Assembly: GCF_024220175.1 (NCBI RefSeq)
Contig: NZ_CP098502.1
Location: 930,001 to 994,000, forward strand
Length of the DNA stretch: 64,000 bases
Reading direction: 5' to 3'
DNA from: Paraconexibacter antarcticus
Lineage (GTDB): Bacteria > Actinomycetota > Thermoleophilia > Solirubrobacterales > Solirubrobacteraceae
Shown: positions 2,357 through 31,301 of the stretch, piece after piece
Numbering within the stretch: the stretch's first letter is position 1
How the letters are laid out: every line of letters starts with the position of its first letter
Position numbers and translations under genes: made by a program
The notes under the pieces: generated by a model
What the model was told of the DNA's origin: nothing
Databases searched by the model: none
What the model saw: only the letters and a program-made list of their open reading frames with translations

Positions 2357-4177
2357 ATGGCCACGACCACGATCACGGTCCCCGTCCCCGACATCGGGGA
2401 CTTCGACGACGTCCCGATCGTCGAGATCCTCGTCGCGCCCGGCGACGTCGTCGCCCCGGAGGACTCGCTCGTCGTCCTCGAGTCCGAGAAGGCGACGATG
2501 GAGGTCCCGTCGCCCGCGGCGGGCAAGGTCGTCGAGATCCTCGTGAAGGTGGGGGACGGCGTGAAGGAGGGGGTGGCGCTGCTGACGCTGGAGGTCGAGG
2601 CGGGGGACGGCGAAGACTCCGACGCCGCCGGCTCCGCGTCCGCGCCGGTGACGTCCTCCTCCGCTCCGACTCGCTCGGGCGGGCGGGTTCCGGTCACGGG
2701 AGCCGCTCCGGAGGGGGTGCCGAACGCTCCCGCTCCGTCCCCGGCCCCCGCCGACCTCCCCGACTCCGACCACACGGCGCAGCTCGTGGTGCTGGGCTCG
2801 GGGCCCGGCGGCTACACGGCGGCGTTCCGCGCGGCGGATCTCGGGCTCGACGTGCTGATGATCGAGCGCTACGAGAAGCTCGGCGGCGTCTGCCTGAACG
2901 TCGGGTGCATCCCGTCCAAGGCGCTCCTGCACGTGGCGAAGCTCATCACCGACGCCGAGGACTCCGGCGCCCACGGCGTCGCCTTCGCGGCGCCCGAGAT
3001 CGACCTCGACGCGCTGCGCGAGTTCAAGGACGGTGTCGTCGGCAAGCTCGTCGGCGGCCTGTCCGGCATGGCGAAGCAGCGCAAGGTCCGCACGCTCCAG
3101 GGCCGCGCGACGTTCGCCGGGCCGCACCAGCTCGAGGTCGTCACCGACGACGGCGTGCAGACCGTCGCCTTCCAGCAGTGCATCGTCGCGGCGGGGTCCG
3201 AGGCCGTCGCGCTCCCCGACCTCCCGGACGACGAGCGCATCATGGACTCGACCGGGGCGCTCGAGCTCCGCGACATCCCGGCGAGGCTGCTCATCGTCGG
3301 CGGTGGCATCATCGGCCTGGAGATGGCCTGCGTCTACGACGCGCTCGGCTCGTCCGTCACCGTCGTGGAGCTCGCCGACGCGCTCCTCCCCGGCGCCGAC
3401 CCCGACCTCGTCCGCCCGCTGCAGAAGCGGGTCAAGGAGCGCTACGCGGGCATCCACCTCGGCACCCGCGTCGAGGCGATCGCGGCCGAGGAGGACGGCC
3501 TGCACGTCCGCTTCGCCGGCCAGGAGACCCCGGACACGACGACCTTCGACCGCGTCATCGTCGCGGTCGGCCGGCGCCCCAACGGCGGGCGGCTGAACGC
3601 CGACGCCGCCGGCATCGAGGTGGACGCCCGCGGCTTCATCCCGGTCGACGCGCGACTGCGGACGAACGTCCCCCACATCTCCGCGATCGGCGACCTCGTG
3701 CCCGGCCCGATGCTCGCCCACAAGGCGATCCACGAGGGCAAGGTCGCGGCCGAGGTCATCGCGGGGGAGGACGTCGTCTTCGACGCGAGGACGATCCCGT
3801 CCGTCGCGTACACGGACCCCGAGGTCGCCTGGACCGGCCTCACCGAGACCGAGGCGAAGGCCCAGGGCATCGCCTACGAGGTGGCGTCGTTCCCGTGGGC
3901 CGCGTCCGGGCGTGCGCTGTCGCTCGGGCGCAGCGAGGGGACGACGAAGCTCCTCGTCGAGCCGGAGACCCACCGCATCCTCGGCGCGGGCGCCGTCGGC
4001 GTGCACGCGGGCGACCTCATCGCCGAGGCCGTCCTCGCGCTCGAGATGGGCGCCGTCGCCGGCGATCTCGCCCTCACCGTCCACCCGCACCCGACCCTCT
4101 CGGAGACGATGGGCCTCGCCGCCGACCTCATCGAGGGGACGATCACGGACCTCCCGCAGCCGCGGAAGCGCAGCTGA
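2357..4177 (+). CDS. lpd: Dihydrolipoamide dehydrogenase (E3) with N-terminal lipoyl domain
   Basis: 606-residue flavoprotein that reoxidises dihydrolipoamide with NAD+. Residues about 4-78 are a lipoyl domain (ESEKATMEVPSP) closely resembling that of the preceding E2; a Ser/Pro/Ala linker of about 55 residues follows; then a complete E3 with FAD motif GSGPGGYTAAFRA, redox disulfide GGVCLNVGCIPSK, NAD motif VGGGIIGLEM and active-site histidine in HPHPTLSE. E3 proteins are usually ~470 residues; the extra length is the lipoyl arm, as known in some proteobacterial and neisserial PDH complexes. The ATG abuts the aceF stop, so it is part of the aceEF-lpd operon. Confidence 0.96.
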   Translation: MATTTITVPVPDIGDFDDVPIVEILVAPGDVVAPEDSLVVLESEKATMEVPSPAAGKVVEILVKVGDGVKEGVALLTLEVEAGDGEDSDAAGSASAPVTSSSAPTRSGGRVPVTGAAPEGVPNAPAPSPAPADLPDSDHTAQLVVLGSGPGGYTAAFRAADLGLDVLMIERYEKLGGVCLNVGCIPSKALLHVAKLITDAEDSGAHGVAFAAPEIDLDALREFKDGVVGKLVGGLSGMAKQRKVRTLQGRATFAGPHQLEVVTDDGVQTVAFQQCIVAAGSEAVALPDLPDDERIMDSTGALELRDIPARLLIVGGGIIGLEMACVYDALGSSVTVVELADALLPGADPDLVRPLQKRVKERYAGIHLGTRVEAIAAEEDGLHVRFAGQETPDTTTFDRVIVAVGRRPNGGRLNADAAGIEVDARGFIPVDARLRTNVPHISAIGDLVPGPMLAHKAIHEGKVAAEVIAGEDVVFDARTIPSVAYTDPEVAWTGLTETEAKAQGIAYEVASFPWAASGRALSLGRSEGTTKLLVEPETHRILGAGAVGVHAGDLIAEAVLALEMGAVAGDLALTVHPHPTLSETMGLAADLIEGTITDLPQPRKRS

Positions 4178-4184
4178 GGCGCCT

Positions 4185-4216
4185 GCGCGGCCGCCGGCCC
4201 GCGCGGCCGCCGGCCC
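4185..4216. repeat. Tandem duplication, 16 bp x 2
   Basis: Two exact head-to-tail copies of GCGCGGCCGCCGGCCC, eight bases after the lpd stop. Each copy is itself rich in GGCCGCC symmetry, so the stretch can fold and may serve as the end of the pdh transcript, but there is no T-tract. Confidence 0.7.
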
Positions 4217-4274
4217 GCCGCGCAGAATCGGCACACCTCGCGGGTAGATCCGTCGCAGCGGGGTGCGGCACCCT

Positions 4275-4329
4275 GGCGGGGTGTGTCCTCCCAGGTCGAC
4301 TCAGCCGGGCTCAGCGGACACACCTCGCC
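4275..4329. repeat. Class A hairpin repeat, left flank of DUF559 gene
   Basis: Inverted repeat with 14-bp arms (GGCGGGGTGTGTCC at 4275-4288, GGACACACCTCGCC at 4316-4329, one mismatch) around a 27-nt centre. By hand alignment about 44 of 55 positions match the element at 5242-5295, including 17 identical bases (GCGGACACACCTCGCCG). The preferred start codon of the following gene lies within the left arm. Confidence 0.75.
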
Positions 4330-5252
4330 GGCGGGCGGTCACGGCTTGCACGAAGGCCGCCGCGACGGCCGGGCGTCAGGGTGGGGCCATCGGCGTCTCG
4401 CAGCTGCGCTGCGCCGGGCTGACACCGTCCATGGTCGAGACCCGCGTGGCCCGCGGCGACCTCCATCGCCGCCACCGCGCCGTCTACGCCCTCGGCCCGC
4501 ACCGCCGGCTCGCGCCGTACGGCGAGTCCTGGCTTGCCGCCCTCGCGGTGGGGGACCGTGGCGGCCTCGGCGGCTGGTCCGCCGCCGCGGTCGTCGGAGC
4601 CGCCGCGTGGCCGGCGCGCCCGCAGGTGCTCGTCCGCGGTGGTCCGCTCACCCTCGACGGCGTCGACGTCCTCCGCACCCGAGCGCTCGACCCGGCGGAC
4701 ATCTACACCGACGCCGCCGGCCTGCGCTTCGCCTGGTGGCCGCGGACGCTCACGGACCTCGCCGCGCGAGCGTCGGTCGCCGAGCTGCAGTCCGTCCTCG
4801 ACGGGCTCGAGCGCCGCGGCCTCCTCGACCTCCCGCGGCTCGACGCGGCGCTGCGCGCGGCCCGCGGCCGCGACGGCATCGCGAAGCTCCGCCGCGCGCT
4901 CGTCCCCTACGACACGATCCCGGAGGCGGAGTACCTCAGCCTGCTCGAGCGCTTCAGCGCGCTGCTCGGCGGGCAGGCGGACCTCCCGCCACACGAGGTC
5001 AACGGCCCCGTCACCCTCGGTAGCGGCCGCATGATCCGCGTGGACGTCGTGTTCCGTGGGCCTCGCGTCGCGATGGAGCTCGACGGCCGCGACAGCCACG
5101 ACCGCTCGCTCCGGTTCGCGACCGACCGCGAGCGTGACCGCGAACTGCAGAAGCTCGGCTTCGCGACGCCGCGGTTCACGTGGCAGGACGTGATGCACCA
5201 CCCGCAGCGGGTGCTGCGCGACCTCCGCGTGCTGCTCGCCCGGCGGGTGTGA
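4281..5252 (+). CDS. DUF559-type restriction-endonuclease-like protein with N-terminal AbiEi-like HTH
   Basis: About 323 residues. The N-terminal part (IGVSQLRCAGLTPSMVETRV, then HRAVYALG) resembles the AbiEi-type winged-helix antitoxin domain. The C-terminal ~110 residues look like the Vsr-like DUF559 nuclease fold: acidic IPEAEYLSLLERF, VDVVF, AMELDGRDSH, RDRELQKLGF and FTWQDVMHHP. The same layout occurs in the gene at 30250-31155. No ATG/GTG/TTG exists in frame between GTG 4281 and ATG 4432, and the latter would remove the HTH, so the start must be GTG 4281 or GTG 4263; 4281 lies inside the repeat arm. The stop is inside the right-hand repeat. Cellular role unknown. Confidence 0.7.
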   Translation: MCPPRSTQPGSADTPRRRAVTACTKAAATAGRQGGAIGVSQLRCAGLTPSMVETRVARGDLHRRHRAVYALGPHRRLAPYGESWLAALAVGDRGGLGGWSAAAVVGAAAWPARPQVLVRGGPLTLDGVDVLRTRALDPADIYTDAAGLRFAWWPRTLTDLAARASVAELQSVLDGLERRGLLDLPRLDAALRAARGRDGIAKLRRALVPYDTIPEAEYLSLLERFSALLGGQADLPPHEVNGPVTLGSGRMIRVDVVFRGPRVAMELDGRDSHDRSLRFATDRERDRELQKLGFATPRFTWQDVMHHPQRVLRDLRVLLARRV

Positions 5253-5295
5253 CCGCCCACGTCGCCGGAGGCGCGCTGCGCGGACACACCTCGCC
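5242..5295. repeat. Class A hairpin repeat, right flank of DUF559 gene
   Basis: Second copy of the 4275-4329 element in the same orientation: GGCGGGTGTG at the left, GGACACACCTCGCC (5282-5295) at the right, the latter identical to the first copy. The TGA stop of the DUF559 gene (5250-5252) is inside the left arm, so gene and repeat are physically interlocked. Confidence 0.72.
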
Positions 5296-5336
5296 GCGGC
5301 GCCCCTCGGCCCGGCCCGGCCGCGACCAGCGACCGG

Positions 5337-5528
5337 CTACGGCTGGGGCACGCGGCGCGCGCGCCCGAGCGCGTCGCGGCCCGGGGCCGGCCACAGCTGC
5401 ACGACCCTGCCGCGCGCCCGCGACCGCCGCTCGTTGCGGCGGACGGTGACGTAGAGCCCGGTGACGAGCACGGCGTCGATGAGGCAGATGACGGCGACGA
5501 CGAGGGGGATGACCTCGAACCACGGCAT
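5337..5528 (-). CDS. Small single-pass membrane protein
   Basis: 63 residues: a hydrophobic helix at about residues 5-27 (VIPLVVAVICLIDAVLVTGL) followed by an Arg-rich cytoplasmic tail (RRNERRSRARGR). Codons are strongly GC-ending on this strand, which supports real coding. It is divergent from the SDR gene at 5599, sharing a 70-bp intergenic region. I do not recognise a family; tail-anchored regulators or small transporter subunits look like this, but no function can be assigned. Confidence 0.62.
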   Translation of the reverse strand: MPWFEVIPLVVAVICLIDAVLVTGLYVTVRRNERRSRARGRVVQLWPAPGRDALGRARRVPQP

Positions 5529-5585
5529 GAGAACCACTGTTCCCCTGACGGCGGACGGTCGAAACACGGGTGAGCTACGGAGGCG

Positions 5586-5591
5586 TAACAT
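5586..5591 (+). promoter_or_regulatory. -10 hexamer TAACAT, leaderless start of SDR gene
   Basis: TAACAT ends 7 nt before ATG 5599. That distance places the transcription start at or next to the A of the start codon. Confidence 0.5.
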
Positions 5592-5598
5592 CTGGCGC

Positions 5599-6519
5599 AT
5601 GGCCTCCTCGTCCCGTGCCCTGCAGCGCCTTGCGGCCGACTCCGCCGGGCTCGCCAACCGCCTCGTCATGCGCCCCGTCGGCACCGGCGGCCGCACCCTC
5701 GGGAGCTGGCCGCTCGACAGGGCGATCACCGGCCGCGTGACGCTCGTCACCGGCGCCTCGTCCGGCATCGGCGAGGCGACCGCCCGCGCCATCGGCGCCG
5801 CCGGGGGGACCGTCGCCCTCGCCGCCCGCACGCAGTCCAAGCTCGAGGACGTCGCCGCCGCGGTCGAGGCCGCCGGCGGCCACGCGAGCGTGCACCCGGT
5901 CGACCTCGCGGACCTCGAGGCGATCGACGCGCTCGCCTCAGACGCGCTCGCCCGCCACGGCCACATCGACATCCTCGTCAACAACGCGGGCCGGTCGATC
6001 CGCCGGTCCGTCGCGAACTCGACGACCCGCTTCCACGACTACGAGCGGACGATGCAGCTGAACTACTTCGCCGCCGTCCGCCTGACCCTCGGGCTGCTCC
6101 CGGCGATGCAGGAGCGCCGCCACGGGCACATCATCAACGTCTCGACCCTCGGCGTCCTGACGCGCGTCCCGCGGTTCAGCGCCTACGTCGCCTCCAAGGC
6201 GGCGCTCGACGCGTTCGGCGACAGCCTCCAGGCCGAGGTCCTCGGCGAGGACATCCGCGTGACGACGATCCACATGCCGCTCGTCCGGACCCCGATGATC
6301 GCCCCGACCGGCGCCTACCGCGGCGTGCCCGCCATCAGCGCCGACGAGGCCGCCGGCTACCTCACCCGCGCGATCGTCGAGCGCCCGCGCCGCCTCACGC
6401 CGCCGGTCGGCCAGGCGATGAACGTCGCGGACGTCTTCGCGCCGGGCGTCACCGACTGGCTGCGCCACCGCGGCTTCGCCTCCTCGCGCGACTCCCGCGC
6501 GGCCCGCGGCGACGACTGA
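5599..6519 (+). CDS. Short-chain dehydrogenase/reductase (SDR)
   Basis: 306-residue NAD(P)-dependent oxidoreductase of unknown substrate. Cofactor motif TGASSGIGEATARA near residue 50, NNAG motif, and catalytic Tyr/Lys in YVASKAALD. It carries an N-terminal extension of about 45 residues and a C-terminal extension of about 50 beyond the Rossmann core, as in the ER-type/DHRS7-like oxidoreductases seen in actinobacteria. The start is set by the -10 hexamer 7 nt upstream. It stands alone; the next gene (6604) has its own promoter. Confidence 0.88.
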   Translation: MASSSRALQRLAADSAGLANRLVMRPVGTGGRTLGSWPLDRAITGRVTLVTGASSGIGEATARAIGAAGGTVALAARTQSKLEDVAAAVEAAGGHASVHPVDLADLEAIDALASDALARHGHIDILVNNAGRSIRRSVANSTTRFHDYERTMQLNYFAAVRLTLGLLPAMQERRHGHIINVSTLGVLTRVPRFSAYVASKAALDAFGDSLQAEVLGEDIRVTTIHMPLVRTPMIAPTGAYRGVPAISADEAAGYLTRAIVERPRRLTPPVGQAMNVADVFAPGVTDWLRHRGFASSRDSRAARGDD

Positions 6520-20628: not shown

Positions 20629-20680
20629 GACCGTTCATATTACTCACATATAAATTTGTACGCCGGTAACCCCTCCCGTG
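20629..20680. promoter_or_regulatory. AT-rich promoter/operator region of the tetR operon
   Basis: A conspicuous AT-rich island in an otherwise ~73% GC background. It holds the minus-strand -10 TAATAT (complement of 20637-20642) and a loose inverted TTAC..GTAA pair (20640-20643 and 20666-20669) spanning ATATAAATTTGTA. Candidate TetR binding site; the symmetry is weak. Confidence 0.45.
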
Positions 20681-20772
20681 AAGCTGAATGAAGGTTCACG
20701 GTGCCCACAGCACCCGGAACCTGCATTCACCTTCCGCGGGGCGCGATCTGCCTGTCCGCTGCGGGGTCGCAC

Positions 20773-30207: not shown

Positions 30208-30262
30208 GCGGTGAGTGACAGCTCACCGCCGTATGGCGCGGGTCAGCTGTCACCCATCGGCC
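30208..30262. repeat. Class B hairpin repeat, left flank of second DUF559 gene
   Basis: Two nested symmetric elements: GCGGTGAG-TGACAG-CTCACCGC (30208-30229) and GTGACAGCT (30215-30223) paired with AGCTGTCAC (30245-30253). By hand alignment about 36 of 50 positions of 30213-30262 match 31252-31301; the outer arms are conserved and the centre varies. It contains the stop codon of the DUF559 gene. Confidence 0.72.
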
Positions 30263-31155
30263 TGCGCGGCCAAGGCGGAGGCGACGCGTGCCGCTGCGGC
30301 CTCGGGGCGGGAGGTCACGTCCTGCCACGTGAGCCGCAGGACGACGTAGCCGCGGGCCCGGAGCCACGCGTCCTTGTCCGCGTCACGCCGGCGGCGCTCC
30401 GCGGTGCGGTGATACCTCCAGCCGTCGGTCTCCACGATGACCCAGGCGTCCGGCCAGAGGAAGTCGGGCACCCACGGTCCCAGGCTCTGGTTGACGACGG
30501 GACGTGCGATCCCGTGCGCGGCGCAGAGCTTCAGGAACCGCAGCTCGAGGATGCTCGCGACGGCAGCGGGGTCGACGGCGTCCTCCAGGATCGCACGCAG
30601 CGCCGGGGCGCCGCGGCAGCCGCGGCGGCAGACGACCTCGGCGGCGAGGTCGGCGGGATCCAGGTGATGGCGCACCTGAGCCTGCTCGAACATGCGGGCC
30701 AGCGCGGGTGGGCGCAGGACCCCGGCGAGGTCGAGGTGGGTCCGCACGAGCGTCGTCACGCGCAGACCGTCACGCACCGTCACGTGCTCGGCGGGCAGGT
30801 CGGCCCGATGGACGATGATCCTCCGGCGGTGACCGCGACCGGAGCGGCGCGGGACGGTCACCTCGGTCGGGACGGCACCGCGCAGGAGCTCCCAGTGCGC
30901 GCCGGCCGCGCGGAAGCTGAGAGCCGCGTCATCGCCCATCGTCAAGAGCGCCGAGGCGAACGTGCCCATGCGGCTCGACGGTCTGGCCCCGACGACGTAG
31001 ACCCGATGGTGCTCGCGGACGAGCCAGCCCTTCTGCGTCCACCGCCGGACGCGATGCTCGTCGGCGCCGGCGACCACGAGCTGCTCCCAGGTGATGCGCC
31101 CGTGCTGGCGCTCCGCGGTACGGCGGATGCGGTGGATGACGGCGTCGGCGTCCAT
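30250..31155 (-). CDS. DUF559-type endonuclease-like protein with AbiEi-like N-terminus
   Basis: 301 residues. N-terminal HTH-like block (IRRTAERQHGRITWEQLVVA, then HHRVYVVG) resembles AbiEi antitoxin domains; the C-terminal Vsr-like domain has SILELRFLKLC, VPDFLWPDAWVIVETDGWRYH and YVVLRLTWQDVTSRP, with acidic residues placed as in PD-(D/E)XK nucleases. Same architecture as 4281-5252 but clearly diverged in sequence. ATG 31155 has GGGGG 1-5 nt upstream. The stop (30250-30252) is inside the left repeat. Role unknown. Confidence 0.75.
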   Translation of the reverse strand: MDADAVIHRIRRTAERQHGRITWEQLVVAGADEHRVRRWTQKGWLVREHHRVYVVGARPSSRMGTFASALLTMGDDAALSFRAAGAHWELLRGAVPTEVTVPRRSGRGHRRRIIVHRADLPAEHVTVRDGLRVTTLVRTHLDLAGVLRPPALARMFEQAQVRHHLDPADLAAEVVCRRGCRGAPALRAILEDAVDPAAVASILELRFLKLCAAHGIARPVVNQSLGPWVPDFLWPDAWVIVETDGWRYHRTAERRRRDADKDAWLRARGYVVLRLTWQDVTSRPEAAAARVASALAAQADG

Positions 31156-31251
31156 ACCCCCAATAGGTCGCGGGCGCCCCGGGTCCGCCCCCGCCGGCCG
31201 GCTCCCTGGCGCGTCGGCGCTCGTCGCGGCGCCCCGGGTCCGAGATCCGGC

Positions 31252-31301
31252 GAGTGACGGCTCACCCGCGCGGTGGGGCGCTCAGCTGTCATCCGCCGGC
31301 C
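31252..31301. repeat. Class B hairpin repeat, right flank of second DUF559 gene
   Basis: GTGACGGCT (31254-31262) and AGCTGTCAT (31284-31292) flank a variable centre; TCAGCTGTCA (31282-31291) is identical to the left copy. It lies about 100 nt upstream of the start codon of the DUF559 gene and about 60 nt before the rpmG promoter. Confidence 0.7.

Follow-up and report, generated by a model that had tools for sequence, protein, structure and literature searches.

A DUF559 nuclease gene between dispersed palindromes: a possible REP/RAYT-like system built on an unrelated enzyme

The 64,000-nt stretch analyzed here (the window; contig NZ_CP098502.1, positions 930,001 to 994,000) belongs to the 5.14-Mb genome of Paraconexibacter antarcticus, called G000 below, and carries a DUF559 gene that is bracketed by two copies of a palindrome. 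The palindrome is also dispersed as solo copies, the layout recurs at other DUF559 genes with different repeats, and three of these units and one solo copy are absent from sister genomes. The best reading is a system resembling that of repetitive extragenic palindromic (REP) repeats and REP-associated tyrosine transposases (RAYTs), built on an unrelated enzyme. The association between DUF559 genes and repeats is near certain. On the evidence of sequence comparison, we consider it somewhat probable that the DUF559 protein binds, cuts and so spreads its own palindromes.

Organization of the unit in the window

The unit consists of the following three features.

4275..4329, no strand, left palindromic repeat: half-sites GGTGTGTCC (4280-4288) and GGACACACC (4316-4324), 45 nt from outer end to outer end; holds the likely start codon
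5242..5295, no strand, right palindromic repeat: half-sites GGTGTGACC (5246-5254) and GGACACACC (5282-5290); holds the stop codon
4281..5252, plus strand, DUF559 gene: predicted AbiEi-like DNA-binding part and Vsr/homing-endonuclease-like nuclease; proposed start GTG 4281 (4263 possible)

The original prediction described directly repeated palindromic elements around this gene, with the stop codon in the right element and the preferred start codon in the left one, and both statements hold. The two elements are imperfect palindromes of about 55 bp with the outer half-sites GGTGTG(T/A)CC and GGACACACC. They are 75% identical over 68 nt (80% over 51 nt) and contain an identical 17-mer, GCGGACACACCTCGCCG, at 4314-4330 and 5280-5296. 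As single strands, both fold better than shuffled sequences on both strands (z of -2.45 to -3.68). The 17-mer alone, with up to three mismatches allowed, is not exceptional in the window (5 matches; 4 of 100 shuffles reach at least 5). A comparison of positions 4000-5700 with Rfam gave no match at the gathering score; a known RNA element was rejected as a candidate, the sole match in this region being guanidine-II, upstream at 4024-4064, with an E value of 0.33 and below the gathering score.

The stop codon, TGA at 5250-5252, lies within GGTGTGACC of the right element. The candidate start GTG 4281 lies within GGTGTGTCC of the left element, and an alternative in-frame GTG at 4263 is just outside it. 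We favor GTG 4281 because the homologues P0012, P0013 and P0015, which are 56-57% identical to the window protein, read CP...DTP at the same codon spacing.

The window protein passes the curated cut-off of the Pfam entry DUF559 (PF04480; 26.1 bits versus 20.6), which is described as a protein of unknown function, and has no family in NCBIfam. In a structural model, residues 1-182 match the folds of AbiEi and Rv2827c, and the nuclease part is predicted to have a Vsr-like or homing-endonuclease-like fold. Taken together, the prediction is a fusion of an AbiEi-type DNA-binding part with a Vsr/homing-endonuclease-like nuclease. It is the sole gene product of the unit and matches DUF559 and, by prediction, the Vsr-like fold, not a DDE or HUH transposase. 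The Y1_Tnp profile (PF01797) has no match in G000; as a control, the same profile has matches in 6 of 14 genomes.

Flanking repeats at other DUF559 loci

We examined 99 homologous loci in 34 genomes, 97 of them picked by homology alone. Each locus was scored by the best repeat common to the region from -450 to +60 around the homology start and that from -80 to +300 around the stop codon, with a threshold of 19. The controls were 348 open reading frames (ORFs) of at least 250 aa and 1200 random windows from sampled stretches of G000, G014 and G003. G000 has 10 DUF559 matches, all above the cut-off and with open frames.

A repeat is present at both gene ends at 40 of the 99 loci, in 18 of the 34 genomes (8 of 11 loci in G000), compared with 5 of the 348 control ORFs and 29 of the 1200 random windows. 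At a score of at least 25, the numbers are 27/99 and 0/348 for DUF559 loci and ORFs, respectively. The excess of shared flanking repeats at DUF559 loci over ordinary ORFs gives a Fisher p of about 2e-24. This contradicts the idea that the element is a common terminator found equally beside unrelated genes, although its solo copies, like REPs, do adjoin unrelated genes. The association may also extend beyond the order: in a draw of 198 genomes over the phylum, 92 contain a DUF559 homologue, and 15 of 25 loci from outside the order score at least 19, the controls being those from G000, G014 and G003. Two of these 15 positives (L242 and L251) resemble simple or tandem repeats.

The shared repeats have a median length of 51 nt (33 repeats of at most 75 nt), and they are often interlocked with the gene. 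The stop codon lies inside the right copy at 22 of the 40 flanked loci, against about 23% expected by random placement and 7 of the 59 loci below the threshold. At 24 of the 40, there is no start codon beyond the left copy, and at 13, the window included, both gene ends are interlocked with the repeats.

The position of the left copy suggests another explanation, in which the protein would be an autoregulated solitary nuclease: the left palindrome would be an AbiEi-type operator for self-repression, the right and dispersed copies would be a regulon or binding sites spread by other means, and the protein would mobilize nothing. The promoters of AbiEi and Rv2827c contain 23-bp inverted repeats to which the respective protein binds (PMC7319586), and these are the proteins that the N-terminal part of the model matches. 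The left copy is indeed at the gene start, and for a homologue in the sister genome G007, a palindrome was found at the gene start but not at the gene end. However, this explanation gives no reason to expect that the stop codon carries a second copy (22/40), that copies are dispersed right behind unrelated genes, or that dozens of copies, among the matches listed, occur only in the gene-carrying genome. We regard it as unlikely, while giving it real weight.

The shared repeats usually differ from gene to gene. Two pairs of paralogues are exceptions: L036 and L038, whose proteins are 74% identical, have the same repeat, and L031 and L032 resemble each other weakly. Otherwise, similar proteins mostly lack a matching similarity of their repeats, so that the repeat specificity would have to change fast. 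Protein identity stays at or below 74% for every pair of flanked genes compared; the gene therefore behaves like a RAYT, unlike a multicopy insertion sequence. In five units of G014, the two repeat copies are in inverted relation.

Solo copies of the palindromes

The two-armed pattern of the window palindrome occurs at 11 sites in G000, with a length of 45 nt at ten of them and 44 nt at the other, and a reversed-pattern control occurs at none. Two sites flank the window gene and nine are solo; the latter are exact-pattern copies only, and further imperfect copies exist uncounted in G000, so that the number is at least nine. The exact pattern is present in 6 of the 61 genomes searched, G000 included, and in none of the seven same-genus genomes G001-G007 (68-97% complete). 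G000, G014, G016, G018 and G036 agree in the outer half-sites and in the length of 45 nt (one G016 copy has 46), and each genome has a different inner sequence; a single 42-nt match in G023 may be due to chance. In G014, which belongs to another genus, two of the five sites bracket the DUF559 gene L067. Its stop codon is likewise located in GGTGTGACC, and the other copy contains its sole candidate start. The L067 protein has just 31% identity to the window protein. The window palindrome was rejected as a mark of all DUF559 genes: the others in G000 have different repeats or none found, and the suggested clustering of the 55-bp element at DUF559 genes does not extend to them.

The repeats of 23 units were compared with grid samples of 400 kb of G000 and 200 kb each of G014, G003, G041 and G028. 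Thirteen have at least one match at E ≤ 0.001 in their own genome. The own genome accounts for 33 matches in all and the four other genomes combined for 6; of these, the weak repeat of L164 supplies 3 own-genome and 5 other-genome matches, and four places are counted for both L036 and L038. In whole-locus searches, the L031 repeat was found at no fewer than 33 distinct places beyond the two at its unit, and the L036/L038 repeat at 36 or more, a number that leaves aside the two flanks of L038 but counts the place of the query itself; among the matches listed, none in G001-G007 covers either repeat. An exact-arm pattern of the L031 repeat has 8 sites, two of them at the unit, and its control has none.

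An alignment of 24 members of the L036/L038 family shows similarity that stops at the palindrome edges. A rough codon-composition test places 21 of the 24 in intergenic regions, and many are found at most 75 nt from a stop codon or in the space between two convergent genes. The arms hardly vary, and the variable pair Y13/R39 is Watson-Crick in just 13 of the 24 copies, which is near independence. For this family, two conserved half-sites in DNA fit better than a selected RNA hairpin. Selection for an RNA hairpin was rejected on the lack of compensatory change at Y13/R39 within the one family (between species, the palindrome of the G007 homologue is changed in both arms).

These data also bear on a further explanation, that ordinary hairpins such as bidirectional terminators have come to lie by chance at both ends of one gene. 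It would account for stable hairpins adjoining stop codons. Nevertheless, it is hardly credible: the gene-family enrichment contradicts it, the single family analyzed shows the near-independent pairing just described, the presence of the repeats is lineage-specific, and the window elements have no Rfam match at the gathering score.

Comparison with sister genomes

The neighbors of the window unit allow a comparison with the same-genus genome G005, which is 68% complete and 80-95% identical to G000 in the matched flanks.

2357..4177, plus strand, left neighbor, dihydrolipoamide dehydrogenase-like (lpd-like) gene: in G005, the gene end is followed by about 20 unmatched nt and then the region of the short-chain dehydrogenase (SDR)
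5340..5528, minus strand, 63-aa open frame without Pfam match: missing in G005 along with the window unit, of which it may be part
5461..6519, plus strand, right neighbor, SDR gene: longest open frame, true start further in; G005 homology resumes at about 5576

G005 has 20 nt in place of 1405, and the neighbors are otherwise joined; the missing stretch also includes the 63-aa frame and intergenic DNA. The L031 unit is replaced by 100 nt in place of 1382 and the L038 unit by 50 nt in place of 1126. Empty sites were thus found for all three units tested.

Solo palindromes differ between species as well. The solo copy at G000:820436-820480 lies between convergent genes; at the matching place in G006, the two stop codons are separated by 12 nt, and in G007 a different repeat occupies the site. 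At the site of a G000 solo palindrome, G007 (L279, G007:C165) carries about 200 nt of inserted sequence that includes two similar repeats of about 35 nt of another kind. A further G007 match (G007:C281, 69% identity), from one of two L038 homologues inspected in this genome, spans the L038 gene and the place of its repeat. The G000 L038 repeat is not at this place (best score 9.0, versus 25.5-44 for five loci of G000). What stands there, at the start of the L038 homologue (L321:1743-1781), is another palindrome that keeps the center CATAT and has both arms changed.

The different repeat that G007 has at the site of a G000 solo palindrome could point to palindromes that are independent of the gene, either terminator-like or miniature inverted-repeat transposable elements (MITEs) moved by another enzyme, with DUF559 genes tending to insert into or between them. 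The location of solo copies behind stop codons and between convergent genes agrees with this as well. But the genes mostly have their own distinct repeat family, found mainly in the gene-carrying genome, ordinary ORFs rarely lie between two such copies (5/348), and the start codon encoded in the palindrome is kept in three homologues. We consider such a passenger role of the gene quite unlikely.

The differences in presence between species, together with terminal repeats and their inverted copies in five G014 units, would also be expected of a classical insertion sequence with terminal inverted repeats and DUF559 as the transposase. Against this stand the predicted Vsr-like fold of the nuclease, the ceiling of 74% protein identity, by which a multicopy element was not seen among the genes compared, and the empty sites, where no target duplication was seen and divergence hides any. 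Plasmid or phage carriage was not seen either: neither 72,556 plasmid records searched at E ≤ 1e-8 nor 50,697 phage records searched at E ≤ 1e-4 gave a match. An insertion sequence of this kind is very improbable.

Relation to known systems

RAYT transposases are thought to spread REP repeats. The units resemble the REP/RAYT systems in several respects: there, too, copies of a short palindrome stand on both sides of an enzyme gene, solo copies are numerous and often near gene 3' ends, and repeat and gene end can overlap (PMC2817692, PMC3733652). The sources place REPs mostly near gene 3' ends, and CGTC REPs are reported without a dedicated transposase; with the latter, the DUF559 repeats have in common dispersed palindromes near stop codons without a RAYT (PMC3733652). 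Unlike the RAYT, which is a Y1 HUH transposase, the enzyme of the DUF559 units is a predicted AbiEi plus Vsr-like nuclease; the repeats are about 50 bp, and those of the window have no GTAG/GTGG head. The suggestion of a RAYT/REP-like or minimal-transposon unit is thus supported in its architecture (40/99 versus 5/348; three of three empty sites). In the open-access literature searched, we found no earlier description of a DUF559 protein paired with repeats.

The type IV antitoxins AbiEi and Rv2827c share with the window protein the predicted fold of residues 1-182. The AbiEi binding site consists of two 23-bp inverted repeats 3 bp apart, about the same size as the window palindromes (PMC7319586). 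The window protein differs in being fused to a nuclease, and no AbiEii nucleotidyltransferase toxin gene is present among the scanned neighbors (the lpd-like gene, the SDR gene and the 63-aa frame without Pfam match). VsrA of Caulobacter is likewise a DUF559 protein, of the PD-(D/E)XK type, and is reported to be responsible for the SOS response of methylation mutants, so that a DUF559 protein can act on DNA in vivo; it is tied to mismatch repair and methylation, and repeats are unmentioned in what we saw of that report (PMC12907096). By its predicted fold, the window nuclease is akin to the Vsr mismatch-repair endonuclease and belongs to a homing family. From free-standing EDxHD homing endonuclease genes such as I-Bth0305I, the DUF559 units differ by their terminal palindromes with many solo copies. 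With regard to insertion sequences and MITEs, repeats are present, and the divergence at the empty sites hides any target duplication.

Other units and repeats

The window contains a second DUF559 gene and further repeats.

30250..31155, minus strand, second DUF559 gene of the window (L032): its repeat is different from that of the window unit; stop codon inside its right repeat
31248..31301, no strand, repeat upstream of L032: GGCCGGCGGATGACAGCTGAG...
30209..30262, no strand, repeat at the 3' end of L032: overlaps the stop codon; 76% identical to the upstream copy
20680..20734, no strand, solo copy of the L039-gene palindrome: the same palindrome brackets the DUF559 gene L039 (G000:93760-94629)

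Elsewhere in G000, the DUF559 gene L037 (G000:1907333) has a palindrome near both ends and three downstream hairpins at a spacing of 76 nt. At L042, L049, L050 and L051 (around 1501), unrelated palindromes are stacked in shared intergenic regions within longer inverted arms (CGCTGACGCGAGCGGGCCGTACGG... / ...GTAACCAGCCCGCTGTTC), as if they had been inserted into places already occupied by repeats. A further repeat, at L043:430-540, has many matches, mostly in G003. In G025, four positives (L176, L088, L179 and L185) are DUF559 genes beside long repeats or arrays instead of single palindromes.

Proposed mechanism and its implications

In our reading, the system is a one-gene unit, a DUF559 nuclease gene between two palindromes of about 55 bp that are also scattered as solo copies on the same chromosome. 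The AbiEi-type winged-helix parts of two protein molecules could bind the two half-sites, in the way that the AbiEi antitoxin binds inverted repeats, and the Vsr-like nuclease tethered to them would introduce a nick at the palindrome or close to it. A copy of the palindrome might then arise, by repair or replication, in a new extragenic place, usually right behind the stop codon of a gene. The whole unit would be copied more rarely than single palindromes, and the gene would persist as a RAYT does instead of multiplying like an insertion sequence.

Several points weigh against this proposal. Binding, cutting and moving of the repeats by the protein are steps that we infer from sequence. The expectation that homologues elsewhere are flanked by repeats held for 40 of the 99 loci (18 of 34 genomes), usually each with its own repeat, and failed by the score test for the other 59. 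All control ORFs were taken from just three genomes, with the preceding stop codon rather than a homology start as their beginning, and an earlier control of 217 mismatched flank pairs, with a 95th percentile of 15.5, included one value of 42.0. Just 18 of the 40 shared repeats are clearly palindromic (p ≤ 0.01; 1 of 59 below the threshold), the window repeat itself having p = 0.014, and some positives look like long arrays (G025, L184). A sequence motif common to all repeats was rejected, as no k-mer rises above the chance maximum in the 33 unit repeats of at most 75 nt. Paralogues with 53-73% identity in one genome mostly carry unrelated repeats, and over all pairs, more similar proteins do not have more similar repeats (Spearman coefficient of -0.21). 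The window repeat has just 9 exact-pattern solo copies. For the proposed start codon, six homologues that include the N-terminus, at 57-60% identity (P0005, P0006, P0007, P0009, P0010 and P0011), do not have the CP...DTP pattern. The exact ends and target duplications are undefined because the empty sites have 20-100 nt of non-matching sequence, and absence of the units from the incomplete G005 may also reflect loss. For the L038 homologue of G007, no second copy of the palindrome was found at the other gene end (second-best score 8.5).

On balance, we still favor a repeat-spreading role of the DUF559 protein. In its most general form, for which we see close to an even chance, the proposal is that repeat-spreading enzymes have evolved independently a second time, as the class of AbiEi-Vsr (DUF559) nucleases, each of which brackets itself with, recognizes and copies its own palindrome of about 50 bp, and that they have seeded many repeat families across the phylum, including in genomes without a RAYT. 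If this is true, they would be a widespread candidate enzyme family with a concrete pairing of gene and repeat, DUF559 would gain a biological context, and part of the short palindromes found in such GC-rich genomes could be due to the activity of these enzymes.
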